Source of the DNA: Novacetimonas maltaceti
GTDB taxonomy: Bacteria > Pseudomonadota > Alphaproteobacteria > Acetobacterales > Acetobacteraceae
Length of the DNA: 64,000 nucleotides
Reading direction: 5' to 3'
NCBI RefSeq assembly: GCF_002906255.1
Contig: NZ_POTC01000007.1
Span: 1-64,000 of the forward strand
The notes below the pieces were generated by a model. That model saw only the letters and a list, made by a program, of their open reading frames with translations. It ran no database searches and had not been told where the DNA came from. Of the stretch, positions 5,872-58,629 are shown piece by piece; within the stretch, counting starts at the first letter, position 1, and every line of letters begins with the position of its first letter. A program made the position numbers and the translations under genes.

Positions 5872-5951
5872 AAAAGTTTTTGGTGAAGCTTTTTTCAAAA
5901 AGCTTCAAAGAACGTCGCCTTTTTAAAAAAAGGCGACACCCAAAAACTTTT
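5872..5951 (+). repeat. Structured repeat, copy A (full length)
   Basis: Outer arms AAAAGTTTTTGG (5872-5883) and CCAAAAACTTTT (5940-5951) are perfect reverse complements. They enclose hairpin 1 (GAAGC...GCTTC, 5885-5906) and hairpin 2 (GTCGCC...GGCGAC). The element can fold as a three-way junction. It starts 12 bp past the purA stop (purA is on the minus strand) and 79 bp past the rpoH stop, beyond rpoH's own terminator. Confidence 0.9.
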
Positions 5952-5962
5952 ATTCTTCTTCC

Positions 5963-7252
5963 TCAATCCTCGAACGGGTCGCGCATCAGGATCGTGTCGT
6001 CACGTTCCGGGCTGGTGGACAGCAGGGTGACCGGCGCCTCCACCAGTTCCTCGATCCGGCGGACATACTTGATCGCCTGCGCGGGCAGGTCCGCCCAGGA
6101 GCGCGCGCCATGGGTCGTGCCTTCCCAGCCTTCCATCGTCTCGAACACCGGGCGGATACGCGCCTGTGCCGCAGGGGCGGAGGGGAAATGCGTGGTCCTG
6201 ACCCCGTCAAGTTCATAACCGACGCAGATGCTGATCTCCTTGAGGCCATCGAGCACGTCGAGCTTCGTCAGCGCCAGTCCGTTCACACCACCAACGCGCA
6301 CGGCACGGCGCACCAGCACGGCATCAAACCAGCCACAGCGGCGCGGACGCCCGGTGACGGTGCCGAATTCATGCCCGCGCTCACCCAGCGTGCGGCCCAT
6401 TTCATCATGCAGTTCGCTGGGGAACGGCCCCTCACCCACGCGGGTGGTATAGGCCTTGGCAATGCCAAGCACGAAGCCGACGGAGGTCGGGCTGACGCCG
6501 CTGCCGGTGCCCGCATTGGCCGCGACCGTGTTGGAGCTTGTGACATACGGGTAGGTCCCGTGGTCCACATCGAGCATGACGGCCTGCGCGCCTTCGAACA
6601 GGATGCGCGACCCGGCGCGGCGGCTGTCGTCGAGCAGGTCCCACACCGGGGCCATGAACGGCAGCACGCGCGGCGCGATACCGGTCAGGAACGCCATCAG
6701 TTCGTCCTTGGTGAAGGTCTCGGCCCCCAGTCCACGCAGCAGCGTGTTGTGGTGCAGCAGCAGTTCGTCGAGCTTCCAGTCCAGCGTCTCCGGCTCCGCA
6801 AGGTCGCACAGGCGGATCGCGCGGCGCGCCACCTTGTCCTCGTATGCGGGGCCGATGCCACGGCCGGTCGTGCCGATCTTGCGCTTGCCGCGCGCGGCCT
6901 CACGCGCACGGTCAAGCGCGCCATGCACCGGCAGGATCAGCGGCGCGTTCTCCGCGATCTTCAGCGTGTCGGGCGTGACCTTCAGGCCCTGCGCCGTCAC
7001 GCGGTCGATTTCCTTGAGCAGCGCTTCGGGATCAACGACAACGCCGTTGCCGATCACGCCCGTCTTGCCGCGCACCAGCCCCGAAGGCAGCAGCGACAGC
7101 TTGTAGGTCTGATCGCCCACCACCAGCGTATGCCCGGCATTGTGGCCACCCTGGAACCGCACGACGATGTCCGCGCGGCTGGCCAGCCAGTCAACGATCT
7201 TGCCCTTGCCCTCGTCACCCCACTGGGTGCCGATAACGGTGACGTTGGACAT
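5963..7252 (-). CDS. purA: Adenylosuccinate synthetase PurA
   Basis: This 429-aa enzyme condenses IMP and aspartate using GTP to adenylosuccinate, the first committed step to AMP. The N-terminal [16 protein letters not shown] carries the catalytic Asp and GTP-binding loop; GHNAGHT and [13 protein letters not shown] are also typical. Length is normal. The ATG at 7252 follows GAGGAGCAGTAC. It lies 89 bp downstream of hisZ on the same strand, a pairing common in alphaproteobacteria. No separate terminator is visible; the repeat copy A begins 12 bp after its stop. Confidence 0.97.
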
Positions 7253-7341
7253 GTACTGCTCCTCGCTCTGCTTCCCTGACGATCCGGATGCGCATCGTCA
7301 GGTGCGACCGGAAGGAAATCCATGATGATGAAAGAAAAAAC

Positions 7342-8505
7342 TCAGCCCGCCTGGGCCGCGCCCTGCACCGGCTCCAGCTTGCCGCCAACCGCGACGAAGG
7401 CGCAGCCAAGGCGGTGTGCCTCCGCCGCCGGATCGGCAATCTCGCCCAGGGCCGCGACCGTCGCATAACCCTGCGCACGCAGGGCCTGCCCCACGCGCGG
7501 GTCCATCCCCCACGGCACGAACACCCGCATGCGCCGCGCACGCGGCGGGGCCACGCGCAGGATCACGTCCGGCCGCAACGTCAGCCCGCAGGCGGGTTCA
7601 TCGTCATTGGAACGATAACGCCCGCCCCGGCCAAGTTCCTCCTGCCGGCCCAGCGCATAAACACTGACGCACACGCCGGTATGGTACTGCCATCCGCGGA
7701 ATTCGACCGGGTCGACCGTCAGGCGGATGCCCGGCACGCGCTTTTCGATGGCCGCGACCGTCGCCGCCAGACGGTCGCTGTGCACGCGCGCGGCATCGGG
7801 CAGGCTGACACGCGACAGGACATCAAGCGCACGATGCGCAGGCCCCGCCGCATGCAGAAGCTCCGTCAGCACGGGGGCCAGCGCGCCGCCATGCCGCGCC
7901 ACGGCGGCCGCGTCCTTGCGATCGAGCGCGCGCAGCAGAGCGGAACGGGCGGTGGGTGTCAGCCCTTCCGTCGCCAGCAGCGCGGTCGTCAGCGGCGGCA
8001 TCGTCAGGTCGAAGGAGACATGCGGCACGCCAAGCACCTGCAGCGCCTCCGCGCCAAGGGCCACGATCTCCGCATCCGCGACGGGGGTATCAGGGCCGAT
8101 CAGTTCAATGCCTGCCTGCAGGATCTGCCGGTCGGTATCGCGCGCAGGCCCGCCCATCATCACGCAGGCCCCGGCATAGGACAGGCGCAGCGGGCGCGGT
8201 TCATGTGCCAGGCGCGTGGCGGCGATGCGTGCGATCTGCGGCGTCATGTCGGGACGCAGCGCCATCATCCGGCGCGTGTCGGGGTCCATCAGGCGGAAGG
8301 TCTGTTCCGCGACTGCCGCCCCGGACCCCGTCAGCATCGTCTCCTCGAATTCCAGCAGCGGCGGCGAAACCCGGTCATAGCCATGGGTGGCGAACACCCG
8401 CATCAGGGTTTCCAGCCCGCTGGCCTCCGCCTCTGCCGCGGGGGGCAGCACATCGACGAAGCCGGCAGGCAGCAGCGCGGGATTGAGGGGCGGATCATCC
8501 GTCAT
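7342..8505 (-). CDS. hisZ: ATP phosphoribosyltransferase regulatory subunit HisZ
   Basis: This 387-aa protein resembles the class II aminoacyl-tRNA synthetase core of HisRS but is shorter and lacks the tRNA-binding end. It begins with the LPAGFVDVLPPAAEAEA segment, has ALRPDMTPQIARIAATRL (motif 2 region), and ends soon after the GRGGRYRSNDDEPACG segment. HisZ partners with a short-form HisG to make active ATP phosphoribosyltransferase in histidine synthesis; hisG is not in this window. It is most likely co-transcribed with purA and possibly serC. Confidence 0.88.
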   Translation of the reverse strand: MTDDPPLNPALLPAGFVDVLPPAAEAEASGLETLMRVFATHGYDRVSPPLLEFEETMLTGSGAAVAEQTFRLMDPDTRRMMALRPDMTPQIARIAATRLAHEPRPLRLSYAGACVMMGGPARDTDRQILQAGIELIGPDTPVADAEIVALGAEALQVLGVPHVSFDLTMPPLTTALLATEGLTPTARSALLRALDRKDAAAVARHGGALAPVLTELLHAAGPAHRALDVLSRVSLPDAARVHSDRLAATVAAIEKRVPGIRLTVDPVEFRGWQYHTGVCVSVYALGRQEELGRGGRYRSNDDEPACGLTLRPDVILRVAPPRARRMRVFVPWGMDPRVGQALRAQGYATVAALGEIADPAAEAHRLGCAFVAVGGKLEPVQGAAQAG

Positions 8506-8588
8506 GGTTCGGGCCTATGGTCTTGGCGTGCGCGCATCAGGCGGCAGGACGCGGCGCATCGCGCCACGCACACGGGGGCGAAAAGGGA

Positions 8589-11880: not shown

Positions 11881-11916
11881 AGAAGTTTTTGGTGAAGCTT
11901 TTTCCCAAAAACTTCT
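11881..11916 (+). repeat. Structured repeat, copy B (collapsed form)
   Basis: AGAAGTTTTTGG (11881-11892) and CCAAAAACTTCT (11905-11916) are perfect reverse complements around a 12-nt remnant of hairpin 1 (TGAAGCTTTTTC). Hairpin 2 is absent. The arms differ from the consensus by a matched A-to-G / T-to-C pair, which keeps the stem intact. It sits between convergent mazG (7 bp) and the IMPase-like gene (13 bp). Confidence 0.8.
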
Positions 11917-12894: not shown

Positions 12895-12974
12895 AAAAGT
12901 TTTTGGTGAAGCTTTTTTCAAAAGGCTTCAAAGAACATCGCCTTTTTGAAAAAAGGCGACACCCAAAAACTTTT
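12895..12974 (+). repeat. Structured repeat, copy C (full length)
   Basis: AAAAGTTTTTGG at 12895-12906 and CCAAAAACTTTT at 12963-12974 with both inner hairpins. Hairpin 1 has one substitution (AAAAGGCTTC for AAAAAGCTTC) and hairpin 2 starts ATCGCC rather than GTCGCC, so it has begun to drift. It lies 39 bp downstream of the hflX stop and upstream of the IMPase-like gene, both on the minus strand. Confidence 0.88.
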
Positions 12975-14733: not shown

Positions 14734-16125
14734 TCAGGCAGGGTTACGGTCTTCCGATGTCACGCCAAGCTGCTTGAGCTTGCGGTGCAGGGCGCTGCGT
14801 TCCATCCCCACGAAACCGGCCGTACGGCTGATGTTGCCGCCAAAACGCAACAACTGCGCCTGCAGGTACTGGGTCTCGAACAGGTCGCGCGCCTCCCGCA
14901 GGGGCAGGCCCATCACATCCTCGTCGGAATCGAATTTCAGCAGCGCGGGCGCGCCATCGCCCACCCCCGACGGCAGCATGTCCGCGCGGATCGGGTCGGT
15001 CCCGTTGCCCGGCATCATGATCAGCAGGCGTTCCATCAGGTTGCGCAGTTCGCGCACGTTGCCCGGCCATTCGTAATTCTGCAGCGCCGCGATCGCGTCA
15101 CCCGACAGTTCGCGCAGCGGCAGGCCCGCATTTTCCGCGGCCCGGCGCAGGAACAGGCGCGCAAGGTCGGGAATGTCCTCGCGCCGTTCACGCAGGCCCG
15201 GCACGCGCAGCGGCACGACGGCAAGGCGGTAGTACAGGTCCTCGCGGAAGCGGCCGGCGGAAATCTCGGCCTGCAGGTCGCGATTCGTCGTCGCAAGGAC
15301 GCGCACGTCCACCTTCACCCGGCGTGATCCCCCCAGACGCTCGAACGTCTGGTCCTGCAGGGCGCGCACGATCTTGCCCTGTGTCTCCAGCGGCATGTCC
15401 GAGACCTCGTCGAGCACCAGCGTCCCGCCATGGGCACGCTCCAGCACGCCGGTACGACGCCCCGCGCCATCCTCGGTTCCTTCGATGCCGAACAATTCCT
15501 CCTCGAAGCGGCCCGGCGCAAGCGTGGCGCAGTTCAGGACGATGAACGGCCCCTCCGCACGGCGCGAACTGGCATGGATCATGCGCGCGGCAACTTCCTT
15601 GCCCGCGCCCGCAGCGCCGGAAATCAGCACCCGCGACCCGGTGGGCGCCACGCGGTCGATCTGGTTGCGCACCGCGACGATCGCGGCACTGCGCCCGTCG
15701 AGCATCGCCTCCGACCCCGCGCGCAGGCGCAGTTCCGCGTTTTCACGCGCAAGGCGCGACGCCTCCAGCGCGCGACGCACCACGACAAGCAGGCGGTCCG
15801 ACTGGAAAGGCTTTTCGATAAAGTCGTACGCCCCGTGCTGGAGCGCCGCAACGGCGGTCTCGATCGTGCCATGACCCGAGATCATGACAACCGGCACGGA
15901 GGGTTCTTCCTTGTGGAAGACATTGAGGATCCCCAGCCCGTCAAGGCGTGATCCCTGCAGCCACACATCGAGGATGACAAGCGACGGGCGACGTTCGCGA
16001 AAGGCGCTGATGGCGGAATCGGCATCGCCTGCCAGCCGTGTCTCGTATCCCTCGTCGCTCAGGATTCCCTCGATAAGCAGCCTTATGTCAGGCTCGTCAT
16101 CGACGATCAGGATTTCATGTCCCAT
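14734..16125 (-). CDS. ntrX: Response regulator NtrX
   Basis: This 463-aa two-component regulator is partner of NtrY. It has a receiver domain with phospho-acceptor D53, a central AAA+ domain with a modified Walker A GAAGAGKE (170-177), and a Fis-type helix-turn-helix (RTAGFVGMERSALHRKL). The sigma-54 contact motif GAFTGA is absent; the corresponding segment reads FGIEGTEDGAGRRTG. Loss of GAFTGA is usual in alphaproteobacterial NtrX, which acts with sigma-70. The start overlaps the ntrY stop by 11 bp, indicating translational coupling. The NtrYX pair responds to nitrogen and redox or envelope signals in relatives. Confidence 0.93.
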   Translation of the reverse strand: MGHEILIVDDEPDIRLLIEGILSDEGYETRLAGDADSAISAFRERRPSLVILDVWLQGSRLDGLGILNVFHKEEPSVPVVMISGHGTIETAVAALQHGAYDFIEKPFQSDRLLVVVRRALEASRLARENAELRLRAGSEAMLDGRSAAIVAVRNQIDRVAPTGSRVLISGAAGAGKEVAARMIHASSRRAEGPFIVLNCATLAPGRFEEELFGIEGTEDGAGRRTGVLERAHGGTLVLDEVSDMPLETQGKIVRALQDQTFERLGGSRRVKVDVRVLATTNRDLQAEISAGRFREDLYYRLAVVPLRVPGLRERREDIPDLARLFLRRAAENAGLPLRELSGDAIAALQNYEWPGNVRELRNLMERLLIMMPGNGTDPIRADMLPSGVGDGAPALLKFDSDEDVMGLPLREARDLFETQYLQAQLLRFGGNISRTAGFVGMERSALHRKLKQLGVTSEDRNPA

Positions 16126-18388: not shown

Positions 18389-19840
18389 TCAGCCACCACC
18401 GCGCACGACGGGAATGTCGAGGTCGCGTATCTTCTTGCGCAGCGTGTTGCGGTTCAGCCCCAGCATCGCCGCCGCCTTGATCTGGTTGCCGCGCGTGGCC
18501 GACAGCGTCATGGTGATGAGCGGGCGTTCGACCTCCGCGATCACCTTGTCATAGATGTCATGCAGCGGCATGCCGTCCTGCCCGGTTTCAAGGAAATGGC
18601 GGATGTGCCGCCCCACCGCGTCCGACAGCGTCTCGTTATCACGGGGCACGCCTTCCGCCGCCGGGGTGGACATGGCCTGCGCCTCCGCCAGTTCATGCTC
18701 GATCAGGTCCGCGCCCAGCGTCTCCTGCGGATACAGCGCATTGAGCCTGCGCATCAGGTTTTCAAGCTCGCGCACGTTCCCCGGCCAGCGATAGGCCTGC
18801 AGGGGCGCGATCGCCGCGTCGTCGAGCATTTTCGCCGGCGTCCCGTCCTCCTGGCAGGCATTGAGGAAATGCCGCGCCAGCAGGGGGATGTCCTCCACCC
18901 GTTCACGCAGCGGCGGCAGGCGCATCGGCACGACGTTGAGGCGGTAGTACAGGTCCTCGCGGAATGTGCCGGCCCGGATCGCCTGGCGCAGGTCGCGATG
19001 GGTGGCAGCGATGATGCGCACGTTCGCCTGCACCGGCTGCACGCCGCCCACGGTCGTGAATTCCCCATCCTGCAGCACGCGCAAAAGCCGCGTCTGCGCC
19101 TCTGGCGGCATGTCCCCGATCTCGTCAAGGAACAGGGTGCCGCCCGCCGCCTGCTCGAACCGTCCGGCGACGCGACTGGTCGCCCCCGCGAACGCGCCGC
19201 GTTCATGGCCGAACAGTTCGCTTTCGATCATGTCGCGCGGGACGGCGGCCATGTTGATCGCGACGAACGGCCCGGCGCGGCGGCGGCCATATTCATGCAG
19301 CGCGCGCGCGACGAGTTCCTTGCCCGTGCCGCTCTCGCCCGAGATCATGACCGTCAGGTCCGACGTCGTCAGCCGCGCGATGATGCGGTAGATGTCCTGC
19401 ATCACGACCGAACGCCCGATCAGGGGCATCTGCTCCTCGGGCTGGGCCACGGCGGGCGCGGGCACGACGGTGGCGGGCGTCGCCAGCGCGCGCGCCACCA
19501 CGGCAAGGACTTCCTTCAGGTCGAACGGCTTGGGCAGGTATTCGAACGCCCCGCGCTGCGTCGCCTGCACGGCCGTCGTCAGCGTGGACTGCGCGCTCAT
19601 GACCACGACACGCAGGTCGGGCCGCACCCGGCGGATGCGCGGGATCAGGTCCAGCCCGTTGATGTCCGGCATCACGACATCGGTGATGACCAGGTCGCCT
19701 TCGCCTTCCTCCACCCACTGCCACAGGGTGGCGGCATGCGCCGTGGCGCGCACCTGGTATCCCGCGCGCCCAAGCGCCTGGCTGAGCACGGTGCGGATGG
19801 AACGGTCATCATCGGCAACAAGGATGGTCGGCAGCGACAT
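18389..19840 (-). CDS. ntrC: Nitrogen regulator NtrC with GAFAGA variant
   Basis: This 483-aa response regulator has a receiver domain (D54), an AAA+ domain with Walker A GESGTGKE (168-175) and Walker [12 protein letters not shown] (233-243), and a C-terminal Fis-like helix-turn-helix ([18 protein letters not shown]). The sigma-54 interaction loop reads GAFAGA (215-220) instead of GAFTGA; the threonine is normally essential for sigma-54 remodelling. The protein is otherwise complete. It may therefore activate through sigma-70, as NtrC of Rhodobacter does, or act mainly as a DNA-binding regulator. It is 98 bp downstream of ntrB. Confidence 0.93.
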
Positions 19841-23560: not shown

Positions 23561-23584
23561 ACCTTTTGATAAGGTGACAGACGT

Positions 23585-23652
23585 TTATGGGTGCCGCCTT
23601 TTTTAAAAAGGCGGCATTCTTTTTTGCAAAAAGCTTAACCAGAACCTCCTGT
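23585..23652 (-). repeat. Structured repeat, copy D (degenerate)
   Basis: TGGGTGCCGCC and hairpin 2 (GCCGCC...GGCGGC) are preserved in reverse orientation, but the left arm of hairpin 1 is deleted (only AAAAAGCTTAACCAGAACC remains) and the outer arms no longer pair. It lies between convergent ispDF (about 24 bp) and the ATP12 gene (a few bases from its stop). Confidence 0.65.
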
Positions 23653-29275: not shown

Positions 29276-29405
29276 GGGCTGTGTCTTGTTCCATGAAAAG
29301 AAGGACGCCACGTCACAACGCGGCGCGTCAGCATGACATATAGGAACACAAACGGCGCGATACACCCCATGCGCCAGACAAAGGTGACGGGTTAGTAAAA
29401 AGAAG

Positions 29406-29502
29406 AAAGTCATAAAAGTTTTTGGTGAAGCTTTTTCAAAAAGCTTCAAAGAACGCTGCCTTTTTCGATCAAAAGGCGGCACCCAAAAACTTTTATGACT
29501 TT
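29406..29502 (+). repeat. Structured repeat, copy E (extended arms)
   Basis: Outer arms are longer than usual: 20 perfect base pairs between 29406-29425 and 29483-29502 (AAAGTCATAAAAG... / ...CTTTTATGACTTT). Hairpin 1 is intact, while hairpin 2 is a CTGCC...GGCGGC variant with an inserted GATC. It ends 3 bp from the MBOAT stop codon and lies between two minus-strand genes. Confidence 0.88.
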
Positions 29503-29505
29503 GAA

Positions 29506-32099: not shown

Positions 32100-32122
32100 A
32101 TCGGCACGGGGCACGGGCGCGC

Positions 32123-34693: not shown

Positions 34694-34695
34694 TC

Positions 34696-34971: not shown

Positions 34972-34983
34972 GGCCTGAGGCCG

Positions 34984-35022
34984 CAAAAAAACGGGGCAAT
35001 CGCCATGCGATGCCCCGTTTTT
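34984..35022 (+). terminator. minE intrinsic terminator
   Basis: ACGGGGC-A-ATCGC stem (34991-35003) pairs with GCGAT-GCCCCGT (35107-equivalent positions 35007-35018) around CAT, with one bulged A. It is preceded by seven A and followed by a T run, 13 bp after the minE stop. Confidence 0.85.
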
Positions 35023-35061
35023 GCATTTTCCATGGCCGGGAACTGCCCTTGGGAAAAAGAT

Positions 35062-35143
35062 AAAAGTTTTGGGGGCCGCCTGTTGATCGAAAGAGGCGGC
35101 GTCCCTTAAAGCTTTTTGGGAAAAAGCTTCACCAAAAACTTTT
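35062..35143 (-). repeat. Structured repeat, copy F (reverse orientation)
   Basis: AAAAGTTTTGG (35062-35072), a variant hairpin 2 (GCCGCC...GGCGGC), hairpin 1 (AAGCTTTTTGGGAAAAAGCTT), and CCAAAAACTTTT (35132-35143). It lies 91 bp after minE, beyond the minE terminator, and 30 bp past the stop of the minus-strand GntR gene. Confidence 0.85.
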
Positions 35144-35172
35144 GAATGTTTTCATGGCAGCACAATCTGGCT

Positions 35173-35847: not shown

Positions 35848-35927
35848 ACTGCTATCTTATCCTTCGTACAAATATATCTTATTAATCCGTATAAATAATG
35901 ATCTCCCCGCAGATGGCAACTTGTACT

Positions 35928-35973
35928 GTGTGTCAGTTGCATTTTTTATGCATATTTAATTTAAATGACACAC
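35928..35973. promoter_or_regulatory. AT-rich inverted repeat between nadC and the GntR gene
   Basis: GTGTGTCA (35928-35935) and TGACACAC (35966-35973) are perfect reverse complements around 30 AT-rich bases, 10 bp after the nadC stop. It could be a weak terminator for nadC or an operator for the GntR regulator. Confidence 0.35.
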
Positions 35974-35982
35974 GACTACAGC

Positions 35983-38432: not shown

Positions 38433-39409
38433 ATCGCCAGCATGCGTTCGACCGCACGCCGCCCGCGCGCCGCGAGTGCCGGGTCGATCGTCACCTCATG
38501 CGTCATGGTCTCCAGCGCATGGCGCAGGCCCGACAGGGTGATGCGCTTCATGTGCGGGCACATGTTGCACGGGCGGACGAAATCGATCTTCGGATGCAAA
38601 AGGGCGAGGTTGTCGCTCATGGAGCATTCGGTCACCAGCAGCACCTTGCCGCCGTCATGGGCCTGCACGTAATCGCTCATCATCGCGGTGGAGCCGGAGA
38701 AATCCGACACCGCGACGACTTCGGGCGGGCATTCGGGATGCGCCAGCACCACCACGCCGGGATTGTCCTCGCGCATGCGGGTGATCTCCTGCGGGGTGAA
38801 GCGTTCGTGCACCTCGCAATGGCCGGGCCACGTGATCATCTGGATGCCGGTCTCCGCCTCGATATTACGGGCGAGGAATTCGTCGGGGATCATGATGACC
38901 CGGTCCGTGCCAAGGCTTTCGACCACGCGCTTCGCATTGCCCGACGTGCAGCAGATGTCGCTTTCGGCCTTCACCTCCGCCGAGGTGTTGACGTAGGTCA
39001 CGACGGGCACGCCGGGATGGCGTTCACGCAGCAGGCGCACGTCGGCGGCCGTGATGGAATCCGCCAGCGAGCATCCTGCCCGCATGTCGGGGATCAGCAC
39101 GGTGCTGTCGGGATTGAGCATCTTCGCCGTCTCGGCCATGAAATGCACGCCGGCCATGACGATGACGTCGGCGCTGGCCTCCTGCGCTTCACGCGCGAGG
39201 GCGAGGCTGTCGCCACGGATGTCGGCAACGCAGTGGAAGATTTCCGGCGTCTGGTAGTTGTGTGCCAGAATGATCGCGTTGCGCTGCCGCTTGAGCTCCT
39301 CGATGGCGCGGATGTCGTCCAGGAACGTCGCCCACTCCATCTCGGGGACCAGATGGCGCACGCGGTCGTAAAGCCGGTCAGCCGCTTGCCGGGGACCCAG
39401 TTGATTCAT
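38429..39409 (-). CDS. nadA: Quinolinate synthase NadA
   Basis: This 326-aa [4Fe-4S] enzyme condenses iminosuccinate with DHAP to quinolinate. Cluster ligand candidates are C113, C197 ([10 protein letters not shown]) and C280/C283 ([12 protein letters not shown]). [19 protein letters not shown] near the N-terminus is typical. Transcription probably begins near the palindromic operator 33 bp upstream. Confidence 0.95.
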
Positions 39410-39442
39410 GATTGCCCTCCTCGCCGGCGGCCCCAGATTTCT

Positions 39443-39463
39443 TTATACTCAATTTGAGTATAA
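39443..39463. promoter_or_regulatory. NadQ-type operator upstream of nadABC
   Basis: Perfect palindrome: TTATACTCAA (39443-39452), one T, TTGAGTATAA (39454-39463). It lies 33 bp upstream of nadA, in the 158-bp gap between nadQ and nadA, where a repressor would block the nadABC promoter. The ATACTCA...TGAGTAT core fits the NadQ site described for alphaproteobacteria as I recall it. Confidence 0.75.
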
Positions 39464-39567
39464 GTGAGGCACGATCATCCGGCCGGACACTTCCAACGTG
39501 AAACCCCGCCTGTGTCAATCAGGATTTTCGTGATCCCCTTGCGCATCCCCCGGCGTGGCGGGCGCGT

Positions 39568-40473
39568 TCAGCCCGAATGCACGATCGGCAGCTTGCTTCC
39601 CGCGAACTGCCGCGCACGCCGCACCTCGCCACAGAAACGGAACAGGCGGGCGGGCCTGCCGCCGGTCTTTTCATCAATCCTGCCTGTTTCCTCAATAAGT
39701 TGCTGTTGTGTCACCAGCCGGCGGAAATTCTGCTTGTGCACATGGCAGCCCGCAAGGCTTTCGACCGTGCGCTGCAACTGGAACAGGGTGAACTCCTCGG
39801 GCATCAGTTCGAAGACAACGGGGCGGTAACGTATCCTTGCGCGCAGACGCGCCATGGCCGTTGCCAATATGCGACGGTGGTCACGGTGCATGTACCGGCC
39901 GGGAATCGCCTGCGCGGGGGGGCATCCGGCCTCCGTCACCAGCGTCGCCTCATACAGGAGTTCATAGCGCTGGAGCACGAGTTCATCGTCCCACGCGCCG
40001 CCATCACCGATGGCGAACAGCGCCATGCAGCGCTGCCACTGGCGCATCCGCGTCTCGATATCCGCCATGCCCGCCACCCAGGCGCACAGGCGGCGTTCGA
40101 TCAGGTCCGTGATTTCCTGCGTCGTGTCGCTGGTGCGGTCTTCCCACGGGAAATAGTCATACCAGTCGCGCCACCCCGTCTCCCGCGCGTGGCTGCGGGT
40201 CAGGGCGAGGTAGGAGATGGAGATGCTGCGCCCCTGTTCGGGGTGCAGGGCACGGTCATGGTCGGCAAAGGTATAGAGCTGTTCCACATGGCCGATGGGA
40301 TGGCCGGTCTGCTGCTCCACCCATGAACGCACCCCCGCCTGCAGGGAACGGTGGCTGCTTTCCAGCGGGCCGGAAGGCAGCAGGCGCCCATCGTCGATCG
40401 TCATCACCTGCGGCACGCCATCGCGCACCGCCGTCAGCACCGCGATCAGTTCCGTCACCACATGCGACATCAT
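39568..40473 (-). CDS. nadQ: NAD-biosynthesis repressor NadQ (Nudix-like + winged helix)
   Basis: This 301-aa regulator has an N-terminal Nudix-related domain (ELIAVLTAVRDGVPQVMTI, VEQLYTFADHDR, ISISYLALTR) without an intact catalytic Nudix box, and a C-terminal winged helix ending HKQNFRRLVTQQQLIEETG, GRPARLFRF. This layout is NadQ (COG4111), a repressor of nadABC in alphaproteobacteria. It sits directly upstream of nadABC, with the palindromic operator between. The start is ambiguous because ATG repeats (MMGGMMGADGMMSH); I use 40473, family-like, but 40503 is also open. Confidence 0.82.
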   Translation of the reverse strand: MMSHVVTELIAVLTAVRDGVPQVMTIDDGRLLPSGPLESSHRSLQAGVRSWVEQQTGHPIGHVEQLYTFADHDRALHPEQGRSISISYLALTRSHARETGWRDWYDYFPWEDRTSDTTQEITDLIERRLCAWVAGMADIETRMRQWQRCMALFAIGDGGAWDDELVLQRYELLYEATLVTEAGCPPAQAIPGRYMHRDHRRILATAMARLRARIRYRPVVFELMPEEFTLFQLQRTVESLAGCHVHKQNFRRLVTQQQLIEETGRIDEKTGGRPARLFRFCGEVRRARQFAGSKLPIVHSG

Positions 40474-40715
40474 GCCATCCGCGCCCATCATGCCCCCCAT
40501 CATGCCACCCCGTCATGCCGCCCCTCATGCCCGGGTGTAACGTCCTGCCATGTCACATGTCCCATGTATCACATGCCCCCGTATCACGCGCCGGTGTGTT
40601 TCGCATGCAACCGTCACGCCCCTGCCCCGTTATGACAGACACAATCCGAAACGGACGCCACAGGCACGGGTCCTTGTGACCTGTGCCCGTTCATGACCCG
40701 AAAAGGAGCATCGGA

Positions 40716-41279
40716 ATGGCGAAAGTCGCTGAAAACACATTCCTGACCGACGTGCAGACCCTGCGCGCCCGTGCAAAGGCCTCCATAGAACAGGGCGCGC
40801 TGACCCCTGCCTATCAGGGGAATGTCAAGACGGCCATCGACCTGTTGCAGACGGTTGTCGCGACGGAACTGGTCTGTGTCCTGCGCTATACCATGCATTC
40901 CATCTCCGTCGAGGGGATCACCAGCGAAAGCGTGGCCGCCGAATTCGCCACCCACGCCAAGGAAGAGCGCGCGCACATGATGTGGGCCGCCGAACGCATC
41001 GACCAGCTGGGCGGCGTGCCCAACCTGTCACCCGAAGGACTGGCGACCCGTTCGGCCAGCGAATATGGCGCGGGCGGCAACCTGGTGGAAATGGTGCGCC
41101 AAAACCTCGTGGCAGAACGCCTCGTGATCGAACATTACCGCGAACTGATCCGCTATTTCGCGGACCATGACCCCACCACGCGCATCATGCTCGAAAAGAT
41201 CCTTGCCGAGGAGGAGGAGCACGCAACAGACATGCATGACCTTCTGGTCGCGCATGAAGGCAAGCCGTTCCTGCCCTGA
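40716..41279 (+). CDS. Ferritin-like / bacterioferritin-family protein
   Basis: This 187-aa four-helix protein has di-iron ligand patterns in helix pairs: ATELVCVLRYTMHSI, EERAHMMWAAERIDQLGG and EEEEHATDMHDLL. This resembles bacterioferritin and Dps-like proteins that store iron and consume peroxide. The start at 40716 has AAAAGGAG upstream. There is no bfd nearby, and a haem-binding Met is not clearly identified. Confidence 0.82.
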   Translation: MAKVAENTFLTDVQTLRARAKASIEQGALTPAYQGNVKTAIDLLQTVVATELVCVLRYTMHSISVEGITSESVAAEFATHAKEERAHMMWAAERIDQLGGVPNLSPEGLATRSASEYGAGGNLVEMVRQNLVAERLVIEHYRELIRYFADHDPTTRIMLEKILAEEEEHATDMHDLLVAHEGKPFLP

Positions 41280-41492
41280 TATCCCTTCCGGCCACTTCCC
41301 CCTTTTTTCGCGGCGCCTGCGTCCACCGGCCATGTCCCGACATGGCCGGACGCCCCTGCACGCCCCTCCCCCGCCGGTTCCACCCGCGCCGGGCGTGCGG
41401 GCGCCGCATCCCCTTGCCGCACGGTTGACACCGCCTTCGCCAAGGTGGCCTGACCTGTGCCAGACCAGACCAATCATTACGGAGACCCTGAC

Positions 41493-42941
41493 ATGACGGA
41501 CGTCAGAACCTACGACCTGTTCATTGGTGGCGAATGGGTGCCCGCCACGACCGAGGAACGCGACACCATCCGCAACCCCGCCACGGGCGAGGCGCTGGCC
41601 AGCGTCGCCATCGCCAGCAAGGACGACGTGGACCGCGCCCTGCAGACGGCGCAGGAAGCCTTTGGCACCTGGAGCCGCCTGATCGCCACCGACCGCGCGG
41701 ACTGCCTGTACAGGCTGATCGACCTGATCCGCCGTGACGAGGAAAAGCTGGCGCGCATCATCACCACCGAAAACGGCAAGCCCATCCGCGAGGCAAAGGT
41801 GGAGGTCAATTTCGCCATCCAGCTGATCCGTTTCGCCGCGGAAAATGCCCGCCGCCTGGAAGGCAACATCATCCCCGGCAGCCGCCCGGGCGAGAAGATC
41901 CTGATCGAGAAGATCCCCCATGGCGTCGTTGCCGGGATTTCGGCATGGAACTTCCCCCTTGCCCTGACGGCGCGCAAGCTTGGCCCGGCGCTGGCGGCGG
42001 GCAACACGTTCGTCATCAAGCCGCATGAACTGACGCCGCTGTCCACACTGGCGCTTGCGGAACTGTCGGTGGAGGCAGGCTTCCCCAAGGGCGTGTTCAA
42101 TGTCGTCACCGGTGGTGGCGTGACGGTGGGCAACCAGTTGGTCGTCAACCCGATCACCAAGCTGATCACCATGACCGGCAGCACGCCCGCAGGCCGCAAG
42201 ATCATGGCAGCGGCGTCCGAGGGGCTGAAGGAAGTGCGGCTGGAACTGGTCGGCAAGGCGCCGTTCATCGTCATGGACGATGCGGATATCGAGGCGGCCG
42301 CAAACGCCGCCGTCGCCGCGCGCTTCATGAACTGCGGGCAGGTCTGCACCGCCAACGAACGCACCTATGTCCACCAGGCGGTCTATGACCGGTTTCTCGA
42401 ACTGCTGCGCCGGAAGATCGCGGAAATCAAGGTCGGCAACCCGCTGGATGCGGACACGACCATGGGACCGAAGATCAGCAGGGCCGAGCTTGAAAAGGTC
42501 GACGAGATGGTCCAGCACGCCGTGGCGCAGGGGGCGAAGGTCGAGATCGGGGGCAAGGCGCTGACGGGTGGCATCTATGACGCGGGCAATTTCTATGCCC
42601 CCACGCTGCTGACCAACGTGACGAACGAAATGGACATCACCCAGAACGAGGTGTTCGGCCCGGTCCTGTCGCTCATCAAGGTCGAGGACTTTGACGAGGC
42701 GCTGATGATGGCCAACAAGTCGCGCTATGGCCTGTCGGCCTACATGTTCACGCAGGACCTCAAGAAGGTCATGCGCATGAGCAACGAACTGAACTTTGGC
42801 GAGATCTACGTCAACCGCGAGGGGGGCGAGGCCGCGCAGGGTTTCCACCATGGCTATGGCGACAGCGGCATCGGGGGCGAGGACGGGCAGTACGGCCTCG
42901 AAGCCTATGTCGATACCAAGACCATCTACCTCAATTACTGA
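41493..42941 (+). CDS. aldA: AldA-type aldehyde dehydrogenase (lactaldehyde/glycolaldehyde)
   Basis: This 482-aa NAD-dependent aldehyde dehydrogenase resembles E. coli AldA. It has the Rossmann segment SAWNFPLALTARKLGPALAAG, MTGSTPAGRKIM, catalytic Cys in NCGQVCTANERTYV, and NEVFGPVLSLIKVEDF. The motif with the general-base Glu reads LELVGKAP rather than LELGGKAP: Glu is kept, but a conserved Gly is Val. The start at 41493 has GGAG upstream. It has a terminator at 42969-42995. It may oxidise glycolaldehyde or lactaldehyde; nearby glycerate kinase suggests a link to C2/C3 acid metabolism. Confidence 0.9.
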   Translation: MTDVRTYDLFIGGEWVPATTEERDTIRNPATGEALASVAIASKDDVDRALQTAQEAFGTWSRLIATDRADCLYRLIDLIRRDEEKLARIITTENGKPIREAKVEVNFAIQLIRFAAENARRLEGNIIPGSRPGEKILIEKIPHGVVAGISAWNFPLALTARKLGPALAAGNTFVIKPHELTPLSTLALAELSVEAGFPKGVFNVVTGGGVTVGNQLVVNPITKLITMTGSTPAGRKIMAAASEGLKEVRLELVGKAPFIVMDDADIEAAANAAVAARFMNCGQVCTANERTYVHQAVYDRFLELLRRKIAEIKVGNPLDADTTMGPKISRAELEKVDEMVQHAVAQGAKVEIGGKALTGGIYDAGNFYAPTLLTNVTNEMDITQNEVFGPVLSLIKVEDFDEALMMANKSRYGLSAYMFTQDLKKVMRMSNELNFGEIYVNREGGEAAQGFHHGYGDSGIGGEDGQYGLEAYVDTKTIYLNY

Positions 42942-42968
42942 GGCGGTTTTCGCATCGCGCAACCATGA

Positions 42969-42995
42969 CAGGGGGCCTCCGGGCCTCCTGTTTTT
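42969..42995 (+). terminator. aldA intrinsic terminator
   Basis: CAGGGGGCC (42969-42977) pairs with GGCCTCCTG (42982-42990), one G-U pair, TCCG loop, followed by TTTTT. It lies 27 bp after the aldA stop. Confidence 0.85.
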
Positions 42996-43017
42996 GTATG
43001 AACCAACTGAAGTAAAA

Positions 43018-43094
43018 GAAGTTTTTGGTGAAGTTTTTTCCAAAAAGCTTCAAGGAACGCCGCCCGTTCAGATCAAAAGGCGGCCCCCAAAAAC
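43018..43094 (+). repeat. Structured repeat, copy G
   Basis: AGAAGTTTTTGG, hairpin 1 (GAAGTTTTTTCCAAAAAGCTTC, one G-U pair), a longer hairpin 2 (CGCC...GGCGG with GTTCAGATC), then CCCCCAAAAAC. The right arm is partly lost. It lies 77 bp past aldA, beyond its terminator, and 11 bp past the coaA stop. Confidence 0.8.
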
Positions 43095-43104
43095 ACGCAC
43101 GCCC

Positions 43105-44079
43105 TCAGATCTGGCGCATCCAGACCGTGCTGACGCTGTGGCTTGGCCCCTTGCGCAGGATCAGGCGCGCGCGTTCGCGCGTGGGCAGGATGTTTTCCTC
43201 AAGGTTGGGCAGGTTGATGCGCCGCCAGATATCACGCGCCACCTTTTCCGCCTGTTCCGGGGTCAGGTCGCGGTAATGGTGGAAATACGATGTCGGCTTG
43301 CGAAAGGCGGTCTGCTGCAGCAACTGGAAACGCTGCACATACCACCGTTCGATATCCTGCGTATCGGCGTCGAGGTAGATAGAGAAGTCAAAGAAATCCG
43401 ACGCCATGAAGGGCTGTTCCGACGCGGTCTGGAGCACATTCAGCCCCTCGAAGATCAGGATGTCGGGCTGGTCCACCACCTGATAGCGGTCGGGGATGAT
43501 GTCATACGCCTCGTGCGAGTAGATGGGCACGTCGAGGTTCCGCTCCCCCGCCTTGAGCGCTGCAAGGAAGGAGATCATCTGCCGCAGGTCATAGCTTTCG
43601 GGAAAGCCCTTGCGCGCCATCAGGTCACGCTCCTGCAGCACGCGCGTGGGCAGCAGGAAGCCGTCCGTCGTCACCAGCGACACGTTGGGATGGTCGGGCC
43701 AGCGCGACAGCACCGCCTGCAGCAGGCGGGCGAACGTGCTCTTGCCCACGCCGACGCTGCCGGCGATGCCGATGATGAAGGGCACCGTCCTGCGCGGCAC
43801 GCCGAGGAAGGCGCTCTTGACCATGTTGTTGAGGCTGCGACTGGCAAGCACATGCAGGTTGAGCAGGCGCGACAGGGGCAGGTACACCTCCGCAATGTCC
43901 TCGAGCGAGACCGGTTCATTATGGCCGCGCAGGGACGCGACCTCCGCCTCGTTCAGGGACTGGGGCACATTCGCGCGCAGGGCCGCCCATTCGGGGCGGG
44001 GGAAAATCATGTATGGCCGGGTCGCGCCATATGACGGGACCTGTGGCGTGTCGGGCCTGTTACCCTTTCCACTCTCCAA
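43105..44079 (-). CDS. coaA: Pantothenate kinase CoaA (type I)
   Basis: This 324-aa kinase phosphorylates pantothenate, the first step to coenzyme A. It has Walker A GIAGSVGVGKSTFARLLQ, TTDGFLLP, GFPESYDLRQM, and FEGLNVLQT. The start is TTG at 44079: an unusually strong Shine-Dalgarno AGGAGGAGA lies seven bases upstream. An upstream GTG at 44130 has no ribosome site and adds a nonfamily sequence; ATG 44010 would cut into the family alignment. A start at TTG with strong SD suggests intermediate expression. Confidence 0.93.
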   Translation of the reverse strand: MESGKGNRPDTPQVPSYGATRPYMIFPRPEWAALRANVPQSLNEAEVASLRGHNEPVSLEDIAEVYLPLSRLLNLHVLASRSLNNMVKSAFLGVPRRTVPFIIGIAGSVGVGKSTFARLLQAVLSRWPDHPNVSLVTTDGFLLPTRVLQERDLMARKGFPESYDLRQMISFLAALKAGERNLDVPIYSHEAYDIIPDRYQVVDQPDILIFEGLNVLQTASEQPFMASDFFDFSIYLDADTQDIERWYVQRFQLLQQTAFRKPTSYFHHYRDLTPEQAEKVARDIWRRINLPNLEENILPTRERARLILRKGPSHSVSTVWMRQI

Positions 44080-44558
44080 GGGCCGCTCTCCTCCTGATGG
44101 TCGATCCGGGCACGGGTGCCCTTGATCCACGCCGGGCGGCGTAACATCTTACCCCGCCCCGATCCAGAGCGACCGGCCCCAATTTCGCGTGTGCAGGGCC
44201 AGGGTGCGCGTCCTACGGCCCCCACCTGATACAGTCGTGACAATTGTGACACGCCTGCCCCCGTCTGCCGCCCCCCCCCCGCCATGACGCGCGACAGCAG
44301 GCCATGCACCGGGCGCGTGCCCCATGGTGTGGCCTGTTTTCCGGGGCAGCCTGCAGGCAGGAACTTCTTTATGATTTGCACGGCGTCGGCGCGACAGGTT
44401 CCTGGACTGAGGGAAACGCCCAGGGCGCGGCCCTGAAACCCGCCAGGGGGCATTGCCCTTTGGAAACCATGACTTACCAATGGATCGGGAATGGGACCTC
44501 CTGCTCCCACGGACAAGAACGCTGCCAGAGGCGACGAGAACACAGCCCCTTCCTGCAC
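44080..44558. other. Gene-free region between coaA and glycerate kinase starts
   Basis: No credible ORF beyond N-terminal extensions. It holds the two divergent promoters, a run of ten C at 44271-44280 and a GTGACA-ATT-GTGACA direct repeat at about 44236-44250 that could be an operator. Confidence 0.4.
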
Positions 44559-45881
44559 ATGATGGACCGCCCGATGACATCCACCCCTTCCTTCCCTGTC
44601 GCGCCGGGCGCATGGCGCGACGACGCCGCGCGCGCGGCCTTGCGCCGGATCTTCGACGCCGCCATCCACAGCGCACAACCCGCGCGCGTGCTGGCGCGCC
44701 ACCTGCCGCCGCCGCCCAGGGGGCAGTGCGTGGTGGTGGGGGCGGGCAAGGCCTCGGCCGCCATGACGGCGGCGCTGGAACAGGCATGGCCGGACGTGCC
44801 GCTGCGCGGTGTGGTGGTGACGCGCGACGGCCATGTGGCCACAACGTCGCGCATCCGCGTGATGGAAGCCGCCCATCCCGTCCCCGACCGCCGCAGCGAG
44901 GACGCGGCGCGCGCCATGCTCGACGCTGTGCGTGGCCTTGGGCCGGATGACCTTGTCATCGCCCTGATTTCCGGGGGCGGTTCGGCACTGATGGAACTGC
45001 CCGCACCGGGCCTGACGCTGGAGGACATGCGTGCACTCAACCGCGCCCTGCTGCATTCGGGCGCGGACATTGGCGACATGAACCTGGTGCGCCGCCACCT
45101 GTCGCAGGTCAAGGGCGGCCGCCTGGCCTGCGCCTGCGCACCCGCCCGTGTGCTGACACTGGCCATCAGCGACGTGCCGGGGGATGACCCGCTGACCATC
45201 GCCAGTGGACCGACCGTGCCAGACCCCACGACGCCTGCCGATGCGCTCGCGGTGCTGCGCCGTCGCGACATCACCGTCCCGCCACAGGTGATCGACGCCC
45301 TGACGCGCCCTGCCCCCGTACCTGCGCCCCCCAACCCGGACAACCGCTACATCCTGATTTCCACCCCGCTGATGGCGCTTGAGGCCGCAGCGGACGAGGC
45401 ACGCTGCCTCGGTCTGACGCCGCTGATCCTTGGCGACGCGCTGGAGGGGGAAAGCCGGGAGGCGGCGATCATCATGTCCGGCATCGCACAGTCCGCGCGC
45501 CATCACGACCTGCCGGTGGCAGGGCCTGCCGTGCTGCTGTCGGGTGGGGAGACGACCGTCAGCATCCGCCCGGCCGACGGGCCGCCGGGACGGGGCGGCC
45601 GCAATACGGAATTCCTGCTCTCCCTCGCCCTTGCGCTGCGGGGACAGGACGGGATCTGGGCCATTGCGGGGGACAGCGACGGCATCGACGGGACCGAGGA
45701 CGCGGCAGGAGCGCTCATTACGCCCGATACGTTGTCACGGGCCCGTGCGCTGGGTCTGGACCCGCGCGACTTCCTGCGCCGCCATGACAGCTACAGCCTG
45801 TTTGACGCCACGGGAGACCTGATCCGCACCGGCCCAACGCTGACGAACGTCAACGATATCCGTGCAATCATGGTGCTGTAG
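44559..45881 (+). CDS. Glycerate 2-kinase (MOFRL family)
   Basis: This 440-aa kinase of the GckA/TtuD type phosphorylates glycerate to 2-phosphoglycerate. It has VVVGAGKASAAM, ALISGGGSALMELPAPGLTLEDM, RRHLSQVKGGRLA, ISDVPGDDPLTIASGPTVPDP, and the C-terminal MOFRL domain with LLSGGETTVSI and GDSDGIDGTEDAAGA. The start is uncertain among ATG 44559, 44562 and 44574. It ends near repeat copy H with no other terminator. Confidence 0.91.
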   Translation: MMDRPMTSTPSFPVAPGAWRDDAARAALRRIFDAAIHSAQPARVLARHLPPPPRGQCVVVGAGKASAAMTAALEQAWPDVPLRGVVVTRDGHVATTSRIRVMEAAHPVPDRRSEDAARAMLDAVRGLGPDDLVIALISGGGSALMELPAPGLTLEDMRALNRALLHSGADIGDMNLVRRHLSQVKGGRLACACAPARVLTLAISDVPGDDPLTIASGPTVPDPTTPADALAVLRRRDITVPPQVIDALTRPAPVPAPPNPDNRYILISTPLMALEAAADEARCLGLTPLILGDALEGESREAAIIMSGIAQSARHHDLPVAGPAVLLSGGETTVSIRPADGPPGRGGRNTEFLLSLALALRGQDGIWAIAGDSDGIDGTEDAAGALITPDTLSRARALGLDPRDFLRRHDSYSLFDATGDLIRTGPTLTNVNDIRAIMVL

Positions 45882-45908
45882 GGAATTCGAAAAACGATTG
45901 ATAAAATC

Positions 45909-45990
45909 AAAAGTTTTTGGTGAAGCTTTTTTCAAAAAGCTTCAAGGAACGCCGCCTTTTCAGATCAAAAGGCGGCACCCAGAAACTTTT
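45909..45990 (+). repeat. Structured repeat, copy H
   Basis: AAAAGTTTTTGG (45909-45920), hairpin 1 (GAAGCTTTTTTCAAAAAGCTTC, perfect), hairpin 2 (GCCGCC...GGCGGC with TTTTCAGATC loop), then CCAGAAACTTTT (45979-45990) with one mismatch to the left arm. It lies between convergent glycerate kinase (28 bp) and a lipoprotein gene (25 bp). Confidence 0.88.
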
Positions 45991-46014
45991 AATCATTCTT
46001 CCCGAACTGGCGGC

Positions 46015-46410
46015 TCAGTTCGCATTGCCGCCGTGCGGCTTGCCGTAACTGACCTGCGTGTCGGGCACGACGAAGTGCTTCGGGTCTTCCTGATTCTGGG
46101 AATCATCATCGTCCCCCGCCTGTGACGGGTCATAGCCGGAGGAGATCATCTGCATCGCCGCCGCGTCGGGCATGGGGTGATAGGCCTCTGTCGCGGCGTC
46201 GGGGTCCGGGTTGATGCGCGGCAACTGCCGCACATGCCCGGCGGCGGAGGCATGCGCCGGGCCGGGCACCGTGGTCCCGTTGGCGCGATGCCCGCCAATG
46301 GGGGGCATTGCCTCATCAACATCCACGGGATCGGTGGGATCGCCATGCATCGTATCGGCGCACGATGCCAGGCACAGCAATATCCCGATCATGACAAGAC
46401 GCGGTTTCAT
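46015..46410 (-). CDS. Small lipoprotein of unknown function
   Basis: This 131-aa protein has a lipoprotein signal: MKPRLVMIGILLCLASC with LASC lipobox (Cys17). The mature part is low-complexity, acidic and Asp/Pro-rich, with no recognised domain. It is monocistronic, convergent with glycerate kinase, and starts downstream of the recA terminator. I do not recognise the family. Confidence 0.7.
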   Translation of the reverse strand: MKPRLVMIGILLCLASCADTMHGDPTDPVDVDEAMPPIGGHRANGTTVPGPAHASAAGHVRQLPRINPDPDAATEAYHPMPDAAAMQMISSGYDPSQAGDDDDSQNQEDPKHFVVPDTQVSYGKPHGGNAN

Positions 46411-46461
46411 GCGCGCACAGTATCATCCCGCGCCACGGCACAAAGCCCGATTATTGCATAT

Positions 46462-46489
46462 CCTGCCGTCACGCCATGGTGACGGCAGG
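46462..46489 (-). terminator. recA terminator
   Basis: 11-bp perfect stem CCTGCCGTCAC (46462-46472) / GTGACGGCAGG (46479-46489) with a 6-nt loop, 24 bp after the recA stop. The downstream sequence is only moderately T-rich, so it may be weak or Rho-assisted. Confidence 0.7.
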
Positions 46490-46512
46490 GACCGGCCATC
46501 GGGGTGGATGCG

Positions 46513-47553
<1,041 letters not shown>

Positions 47554-56192: not shown

Positions 56193-56211
56193 CCTTAACG
56201 GAGAATAAGAA

Positions 56212-57234: not shown

Positions 57235-58457
57235 TGGCGACGGTCGCATTCAAGACGCTGGATCAGCTTCAGCCCGCGGGCAAGAAGGTTCTTCTGCGCG
57301 CGGACCTGAACGTTCCGGTCAAGGGGGGGCAGATTACCGACGCCACCCGCCTGCTGCGCCTGCTGCCGACAATCCAGGAACTGGCGCAGAAGGGCGCGCG
57401 CGTCATCGTGGTCAGCCACTTCGACCGCCCCAAGGGGCAGCGCGTGCCTGAAATGTCGCTGGCCCCGATTGCCGATGCGCTGGGCGATGCGCTGGGCCGT
57501 CCCGTCACCTTTGCCGATGACTGCATCGGCCCGGTGGCGCAGAAGGCGGTGGACGCCATGCAGGATGGCGACGTGGTGGTGCTGGAAAACACCCGTTTCC
57601 ATCCCGGCGAGGAAGCGAACGACCCCGACCTTGCCAAATCGCTGGCGTCGCTGGCGGATTTCTACGTCAATGACGCGTTTTCCGCCGCCCACCGCGCCCA
57701 TGCCTCCACCGAGGGCGTGGCCCGCCACCTGCCGTCCTTTGCCGGGCGGTTGATGGAGACGGAACTGAACGCGCTGAACATCGCGCTGGAAAACCCTGAA
57801 CGCCCGGTCGGCGCAATCATTGGCGGGGCGAAAATCTCCACCAAGCTCGACCTGATCGGCAACCTGCTTGAAAAGGTGCAGGTGCTGATCATCGGTGGCG
57901 CGATGGCCAACACGTTCCTTGCGGCGCAGGGCGTGAAGGTCGGCCGTTCCCTGCAGGAAGGCGAGATGCACGACACCGCGCGCGCCATCCTGGCGAAGGC
58001 CAGGGAAAAGGGGTGCGAGGTGGTGCTGCCGGTCGATGCGGTGACGGCGACCGAGTTCAAGGCCAACGTGCCCACGCAGGTTGTCGCCATCGACGCCATC
58101 CCCGATGACGCGATGATCCTTGATGTCGGCCCGCAGACCGTGCGCGACCTGTGCGCGAAGATCGCGACGCTGAAGACGCTGGTCTGGAACGGGCCGCTTG
58201 GCGCGTTCGAGATCCCGCCCTTTGACGCGGGCACGAACGCCGTGGCGCAGGAGGTCGGCCGCCTGACGCACGAAGGCAGGCTGAAAAGCATCGCAGGCGG
58301 CGGCGACACGGTCTCCGCCCTGCGCCATGCCGGTGTGACGAAGGAGATTTCCTATATCTCCACCGCAGGCGGTGCGTTCCTTGAATGGCTGGAGGGCAAG
58401 ACCCTGCCGGGCATCATGGCGCTGGAATCCGTGTTCGAGCGCGCATTGCCGATCTGA
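57234..58457 (+). CDS. pgk: Phosphoglycerate kinase
   Basis: This 407-aa kinase makes ATP from 1,3-bisphosphoglycerate. It has [39 protein letters not shown]-type, and the C-terminal [13 protein letters not shown]. The start at 57234 overlaps gap; the longer frame is not used. It has a terminator at 58491-58524. Confidence 0.97.
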
Positions 58458-58490
58458 GCGGCCGTTTTGTTACCGTCCTGATGGGCTATG

Positions 58491-58524
58491 GGGGATCATC
58501 CTTTGCGGGATGGTCCCCTTTTTT
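58491..58524 (+). terminator. pgk intrinsic terminator
   Basis: 11-bp stem GGGGATCATCC (58491-58501) / GGATGGTCCCC (58508-58518), one T-G pair, then TTTTTT. It lies 33 bp after the pgk stop. Confidence 0.88.
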
Positions 58525-58548
58525 GTAGATGGAAAATCCTTGAGGAAT

Positions 58549-58629
58549 AAAAGTTTTTGGGTGCCGCCTTTTTTCCAAAAAGGCGGCGTTCTTCGAAGCT
58601 TTTTGAAAAAAGCTTCACCAAAAACTTCT
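58549..58629 (-). repeat. Structured repeat, copy I (reverse orientation)
   Basis: AAAAGTTTTTGG (58549-58560), perfect hairpin 2 (GCCGCC...GGCGGC), perfect hairpin 1 (GAAGC...GCTTC), CCAAAAACTTCTT (58618-58630). It lies 92 bp past pgk, beyond its terminator, and about 2 bp from the ftsY stop. Confidence 0.9.

Follow-up and report, generated by a model that had tools for sequence, protein, structure and literature searches.

Among the dispersed palindromes of bacteria, the repetitive extragenic palindromic (REP) sequences, with the bacterial interspersed mosaic elements (BIMEs) and the REP doublets forming hairpins (REPINs), have been proposed to act in supercoiling, in termination and in keeping RNA stable, and the same source records CGTC repeats as missing from Acetobacteraceae (PMC3733652). 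The enterobacterial repetitive intergenic consensus (ERIC) measures 127 bp, and hairpins formed by dispersed DNA uptake sequences may serve as terminators (PMC2267715). Template switching between short inverted repeats homogenises their arms and inverts the spacer (PMC8604942). Here we analyze an intergenic palindromic repeat of about 80-100 bp, with outer arms of 12-20 bp or more around two hairpins, nine copies of which (A to I) occur in a 64-kb window of Novacetimonas maltaceti, the window being the whole stretch of DNA analysed (positions 1 to 64,000 of contig NZ_POTC01000007.1, assembly GCF_002906255.1). The first-pass annotation of this window knew of no description of the element, and we likewise found none among the top-listed open-access papers, including PMC12306157, PMC2267715, PMC3733652, PMC4686929 and PMC8102297, most subscription papers and every supplement lying outside this scope.

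We hold it somewhat better than an even chance (roughly 0.55) that these copies belong to a palindromic repeat family that spread in Komagataeibacter and Novacetimonas, is kept behind stop codons, flips in place and acts as a bidirectional terminator or 3'-end barrier. A word spanning one arm and hairpin 1, AAGTTTTTGGTGAAGC, searched with at most one mismatch, matches the 3.63-Mb draft genome 189 times (95 + 94) and its reversed control not once, which identifies a repeat family and not a chance recurrence. A covariance model built from seven of the nine window copies, a search that had been proposed with the original observation, gave at least 150 matches in the same draft. For a first placement count, 77 places scoring at least 22 bits were taken from 143 model matches, many of which were both strands of one place, and the weaker ones were dropped. 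An Rfam scan of the window recovered no family at the repeat copies, two tRNAs being the sole matches at the gathering score. The earlier observation was right, each of its nine copies being present where it had been placed, and it understated the extent of the family. The density is uneven, contigs C1 (L037-L045), which has 6 matches over 180 kb, and C8 (L061-L064), which has 2 over 80 kb, being poor in elements against 9-13 per 80 kb in C6, C10 and C11.

The position of the element relative to genes was determined in 1.23 Mb, a third of the genome, for the 116 elements scoring at least 56, with gene calls from a codon-usage script. This sample places 65 elements between convergent genes, 44 between co-oriented genes and 4 between divergent genes, with 1 inside a weak open reading frame (ORF) call and 2 at stretch edges, where the available intergenic bases would predict 18.5, 60.9 and 33.6 for the three kinds of gap (binomial p = 4e-23, 0.002 and 1e-12). 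The bias to 3' ends, for which a test had been suggested, is thus present on this scale; a first count over 864 kb had given 47, 27 and 2, plus 1 inside a gene, of 77. Altogether 62 of the 165 convergent gene pairs in the 1.23 Mb carry an element. Most convergent copies (59/65) lie within 40 bp of a stop, and co-oriented copies sit a median of 26 bp past the upstream stop and 104 bp ahead of the next start. Orientation is even in convergent gaps (15 + and 15 -), the corresponding numbers in co-oriented gaps being 6 and 12. New gene calls in the window reproduce the seven convergent, two co-oriented (C and E) and zero divergent gaps reported before; the absence from divergent gaps holds there but not throughout the larger sample, with its 4 of 116 elements in gaps called divergent. 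Similarly, all nine copies follow a minus-strand stop in the window, at -1 to 35 bp from it, but elsewhere stops on either strand are followed, and this strand bias is a coincidence of the window. Plasmids carry the element too, in 6 records from K. nataicola, K. saccharivorans and N. hansenii; of the five elements there that are flanked left and right by annotated genes, four lie in convergent gaps and one in a co-oriented gap, in a set whose annotation is incomplete, in which two of the four convergent elements are one site in two strains and whose sixth record is too little annotated.

A selfish or relict REP- or MITE-like repeat (MITE, miniature inverted-repeat transposable element), functionless and tolerated behind stops, its flips and paired changes being by-products of replication, would also be expected to collect in convergent gaps, which are the most permissive places. 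We treat this as a genuine, if lesser, possibility. Even where such gaps offer ample room, however, the position is not indifferent: where free space exceeds 80 bp, as it does in 35 convergent gaps, elements lie closer to one stop than a uniform distribution would place them (p = 0.0025). Further, some sites hold the element in both Novacetimonas and Komagataeibacter, those of copies A and B among them, which is less readily expected of a functionless repeat.

Many shared sites hold the element in opposite orientations across species. In the main comparison, with the about 93% identical relative G001, 64 own elements had both flanks in the G001 DNA that was read, and 47 of these were found in the same orientation, 13 inverted and 4 not at all, giving 60 sites common to both genomes; the 13 inverted sites include one double element and number 12 without it. 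One locus (L048:6587-6739, contig C2) carries two elements back to back in opposite orientation, where G001 has a single one. The own copy at site A has hairpin 1 ahead of hairpin 2, and G001 and G002 have hairpin 2 first, between conserved flanks; sites C and D are likewise inverted relative to G001 and to G002 and G003, respectively. Inversions are concentrated in well-kept elements, with 11 of 32 sites inverted where both copies are intact (score at least 115) against 2 of the 28 other sites (Fisher p = 0.013). That the opposite orientations are in-place inversions of the same copy is supported by a comparison of inner bases among copies scoring at least 90 (26 same-orientation and 12 inverted pairs relative to G001): identity is 0.893 in inverted pairs, 0.825 in random pairs and 0.906 in same-orientation pairs. 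Inverted pairs are closer than random copies (ranks non-uniform, Kolmogorov-Smirnov p = 0.0035, n = 12) and show no significant difference from same-orientation pairs (p = 0.16). In the comparison with G001 these ranks speak overall against replacement by another copy, save for pairs there and against G002 that are considered below.

The same tendency was seen on a wider scale when stretches of 18-50 kb, covering sites A-D and the DNA beyond them, were compared among 10 Komagataeibacter and 4 Novacetimonas genomes. Pairs in the same and in inverted orientation stand at 18:1 where flank identity is at least 92%, at 23:11 and 31:38 at the next two lower levels, and at 25:23 below 82%, the pairs not being independent, and comparisons without an element number 9, 19, 69 and 84 at these four levels. 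With divergence, the retained elements therefore approach a roughly half-and-half orientation among the 14 genomes. Opposite orientations also appear between assemblies of 5-8 contigs (G087 versus G161, G161 versus G326), which makes draft misassembly an unlikely cause. The one plasmid site common to two K. saccharivorans strains has the same orientation in both.

Such flips probably come about by polymerase template switching or by recombination between the arms, neither of which would need a dedicated enzyme, and the same process would homogenise the stems; template switching would account for the flips, for their concentration in intact copies and for part of the paired changes described below. 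Given that the fold is nearly symmetric, either orientation could serve transcripts arriving from either side, and flips would be tolerated. For a selfish repeat, template switching (PMC8604942) would account for both flips and paired changes without selection, and 28 of the 60 sites common with G001 are not intact in both genomes; however, the elements at these 60 sites are 0.813 identical between the two genomes against 0.704 for adjacent non-coding DNA, a difference that the detection threshold biases upward. The inversions might alternatively be the work of a dedicated site-specific recombinase using the element as an inverton-like switch. Inverted repeats of 12-20 bp or more, the high share of flipped intact copies and a plasmid copy facing a tyrosine recombinase gene would all suit such an enzyme, but both orientations are equally common in convergent gaps, the content is near-symmetric and no on/off output is evident, points that count only weakly, as no search for such an enzyme was made. 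Inversion between the repeats, as in invertons, is seen here in comparisons between genomes. We judge a recombinase to be very improbable.

In a word search of 397 Acetobacteraceae genomes, drawn from a larger group and with control matches of 0 or 1 per genome, the word is abundant in 4/4 Novacetimonas genomes (133-206 matches) and in 13/13 sampled genomes of genus g85, taken to be Komagataeibacter (16-194 matches). Any match at all is found in 54 of the 397 genomes, mostly one to a few outside the two genera, the exceptions being G398 (28 matches), G212 (12, of a variant) and G318 (10). Genus g93, which includes G212, has up to 12 matches per genome, those listed for G212 all being the one-base variant AAGTTTTTGGTGCAGC, perhaps a sister family. 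No match was obtained among 50,697 phage records.

More distant relatives were sought in 140 genomes with a pattern that fixes the outer arms and leaves an interior of 38-66 bases. It matches 8 genomes of 6 genera, the control giving 1+1 matches in the own genome and 0 elsewhere. In genera g21, g80, g100 and g104, as also in diverged elements of g5 and g20, the interior again consists of two palindromes built from other stem bases, CTCCC/GGGAG, CTTC/GAAG and GTTC/GAAC as against GAAGC/GCTTC and GCCGCC/GGCGGC here; weak covariance-model matches in G007, G022 and G023 also have their arms in common with the element. Nine of ten other-genera loci follow a called stop at a distance of 78 bp or less; two of these are in convergent and seven in co-oriented gaps, with no divergent case, and the tenth locus lies within an ORF call, all by an ORF caller trained on the window's own genome. 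At L076:17065-17116 (contig C11) a short palindrome, GGTTCTTTTTT..AAAAAGAAC, adjoins an element remnant and resembles one inner palindrome of the elements in other genera. We tentatively suggest that the elements of acetic acid bacteria might be place-fixed, flipping, near-symmetric palindromic modules, spread genome-wide and serving as shared 3'-end insulators of convergent genes, whose arms and layout are kept across genera while the inner stems change, and whose upkeep would fall to template switching and conversion between copies without a dedicated transposase.

The three-way fold proposed in the first-pass annotation is predicted for seven window copies (A, C, E, F, G, H and I), which form an outer helix and two hairpins. 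It is not predicted for B, which folds as one hairpin made of its arms, or for D, which has lost the outer helix, in line with their earlier description as arms without inner stems and as a decaying copy. B is the product of an internal deletion, the copy at the same site being intact in G001, K. xylinus and K. nataicola. A consensus that we wrote with extended arms has folding energies of -42.9 and -44.8 kcal/mol on the two strands. The 20-bp arms of E had been taken as a peculiarity of that copy, but the flanks of 50 copies carry the same T-rich outward extension on both sides, with T at positions 6-8, and arms of about 20 bp are hence general; an extra CTG/CAG step was noticed by eye in some copies only. 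When 66 own copies were aligned and compared with 500 shuffles, pairing cells made up 95.3% versus 94.7%, and double-change cells numbered 18 versus 6.2, a value reached by 0/500 shuffles; 14 of the 18 fall in hairpin 2, which is variable, and the stem of hairpin 1 is nearly invariant. A putative site acting at the DNA level, for instance for gyrase or a nucleoid protein relieving supercoils between convergent genes, might explain why hairpin 1 barely varies while hairpin 2 does, and why convergent gaps are enriched; supercoil-relief sites have been reported for the BIMEs of E. coli. However, co-oriented 3' ends are occupied too, and we consider such a site improbable.

In the reading that we prefer, a bidirectional terminator or 3'-end barrier, the folded RNA would end or protect transcripts and limit read-through between convergent genes. 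Judged from placement and predicted fold, such a function is more probable than not. Like intrinsic terminators the element lies directly behind stop codons, but it has its U tract within or beyond the outer helix and not directly following a GC hairpin. Of 22 gene ends lying more than 50 bp from the element, 10 have private terminator-like hairpins, compared with 25/156 in element-free convergent gaps and 9/156 in shuffles; at gene ends within 50 bp of an element the count of 0/68 is uninformative because the spacer is too short. The hairpins of rpoH, minE and the aldehyde dehydrogenase gene, and that of the gene preceding ftsY (presumably pgk), remarked upon earlier, were again recognized by eye. 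Such coexistence of hairpin and element, together with the extended pairing of the arms and the two stable hairpins that either strand can form, would fit a 3'-end RNA stabiliser or processing site, such as an RNase III site or exonuclease barrier, in place of a terminator. Sequence alone cannot tell stabilisation from termination, and we rate this alternative as rather doubtful.

Several observations weigh against a terminator or barrier that is maintained by selection and inverted in place. The proposal of a dispersed bidirectional 3'-end element is a fair one in view of the placement and the paired changes but gains nothing from a consensus terminator scan of positions 28000-47000, which found 11 terminators versus 12.8 expected in shuffles; of the copies covered, E contains a single called hairpin, on the minus strand, and F, G and H (3/4 copies) contain none. 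In co-oriented gaps the two flanks are equally T-rich, which excludes a sense-side U tail and led us to reject selection for one. Compensatory change, which the first-pass annotation had named as a check, is seen in the excess of double-change cells but not in the number of base pairs with double changes, which is 4 and is reached by 219/500 shuffles; furthermore, stem homogenisation can mimic covariation without selection. Conservation of the three-way fold across genera, a point on which the preferred reading does not depend, is not supported, the ten other-genera loci being predicted to form two hairpins in 3/10 cases and one long hairpin in 7/10, because their two inner palindromes can pair together. 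With regard to inversion, 4 of the 12 inverted pairs relative to G001 rank at 0.42-0.76 among copies, and all 4 relative to G002 rank mid-range, 7 to 13 of 22, and at these sites another copy may have taken the place of the original. The element is also dispensable, given that 15 of the 24 own sites mapped in G002 lack it, as a selfish repeat would lead one to expect, and at two of these 15 the convergent genes are merely 14 and 22 bp apart. Finally, a neutral repeat would also end up at 3' ends if it did no more than avoid promoters and genes.

The comparison with described systems also bears on how the element is to be classed. It shares with REP, BIME and REPIN sequences the character of a high-copy palindrome between genes, but it is longer, has two inner hairpins, flips at kept positions and lacks a GTAG or CGTC end tag, the 66-copy consensus ending, by eye, in AAAAG / CTTTT. 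Mobilisation by a REP-associated tyrosine transposase (RAYT) was rejected, PF01797 having 0 matches in the own draft genome while the family was found in 5/14 control genomes. As in MITEs the ends are inverted repeats, yet the mobile, MITE-like origin suggested earlier found no support: beyond the lack of a RAYT match, no larger element with the same ends was found in 1.23 Mb, where 2 of 98 arm and hairpin-1 matches fall outside listed elements, 19 kb apart. Target duplications, already reported as not visible, were not seen at the window copies, and none could be made out cleanly at 7 candidate empty sites, where flanks have diverged and several 'absent' sites are degraded copies. ERIC and MITE-like palindromes resemble the element in being about 100 bp long, intergenic and extensively palindromic, but the element has two inner hairpins and neither a target duplication nor a parent transposon was found in the places named. 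We know of no sequence resemblance between ERIC and the element. DNA-uptake-sequence hairpins are likewise dispersed repeats and possible terminators; their repeat is a short uptake word of about ten bases, whereas in the present family the unit that recurs is the complete folded element. The inverted repeats subject to template switching show homogenised arms and reversible spacer inversion as well, but the inversions described there, in yeast genes, changed 2-5 bp of spacer, in contrast to the structured interior of about 55-60 bp in this dispersed bacterial family (PMC8604942). Since defining features of a REP, a MITE or a terminator were either lacking or not clearly seen, we file the element as a new family of REP-like palindromic repeats, distinct from each of these proper. 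The nine window copies are collected in Table 1.

Table 1. The nine copies of the repeat in the 64-kb window, with strand, surroundings and state in relatives
Copy	Position	Strand	Location and state	Relatives
A	5872..5951	+	between rpoH (+) and purA (-)	opposite orientation in G001, G002
B	11881..11916	+	arms only (internal deletion); between MazG-domain gene (+) and phosphatase-like gene (-)	
C	12895..12974	+	behind hflX (-), co-oriented gap	opposite orientation in G001; absent from G002, G003
D	23583..23647	-	degraded; between ispDF (+) and minus-strand gene	better kept and opposite orientation in G002, G003
E	29406..29502	+	full 20-bp arms; co-oriented gap	absent from G002
F	35062..35143	-	between minE (+) and minus-strand gene	absent from G002
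G	43018..43094	+	between aldehyde dehydrogenase gene (+) and minus-strand gene	distal arm truncated relative to G001
H	45909..45990	+	between glycerate kinase-like gene (+; family score below curated cut-off) and minus-strand gene	absent from G002
I	58549..58629	-	directly behind ftsY (-), opposite plus-strand gene that has a terminator-like hairpin of its own	same orientation in G001, G002

Other repeated sequences came to light alongside the element. Near contig ends, C66:12072-12311 and C83:16-254 each hold a pair of elements 154 bp apart, with 3/4 scores equal, perhaps a repeated unit or an assembly overlap. At L049:12945-13084 (contig C2) an element is joined to an extra unit, about 125-140 bp in total, and some nine similar stretches exist in G001. 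A further repeat, about 170-190 bp long, lies at L070:15352-15551 (contig C10); its matches are few in G002 and number dozens in G001 (on C62, C134, C74 and further contigs), where they are often adjacent. In the window itself, positions 15034-15319 and 18752-19034 are similar stretches of DNA 3.7 kb apart within two genes, which by eye look like paralogous response regulators.

What is new here, beyond the nine-copy view from which the work set out, is the in-place inversion and the existence of relatives in other genera. Covariation in palindromic repeats should be viewed with caution, as it can come from arm homogenisation. The record of flips allows inversion between short inverted repeats to be measured in nature, and it lets one ask whether repeats become parts of gene ends by function or by tolerance. 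Given that 62 of 165 convergent gene pairs carry the element, it may be a principal means by which transcripts are ended or insulated there; the bacteria concerned include industrial cellulose producers.

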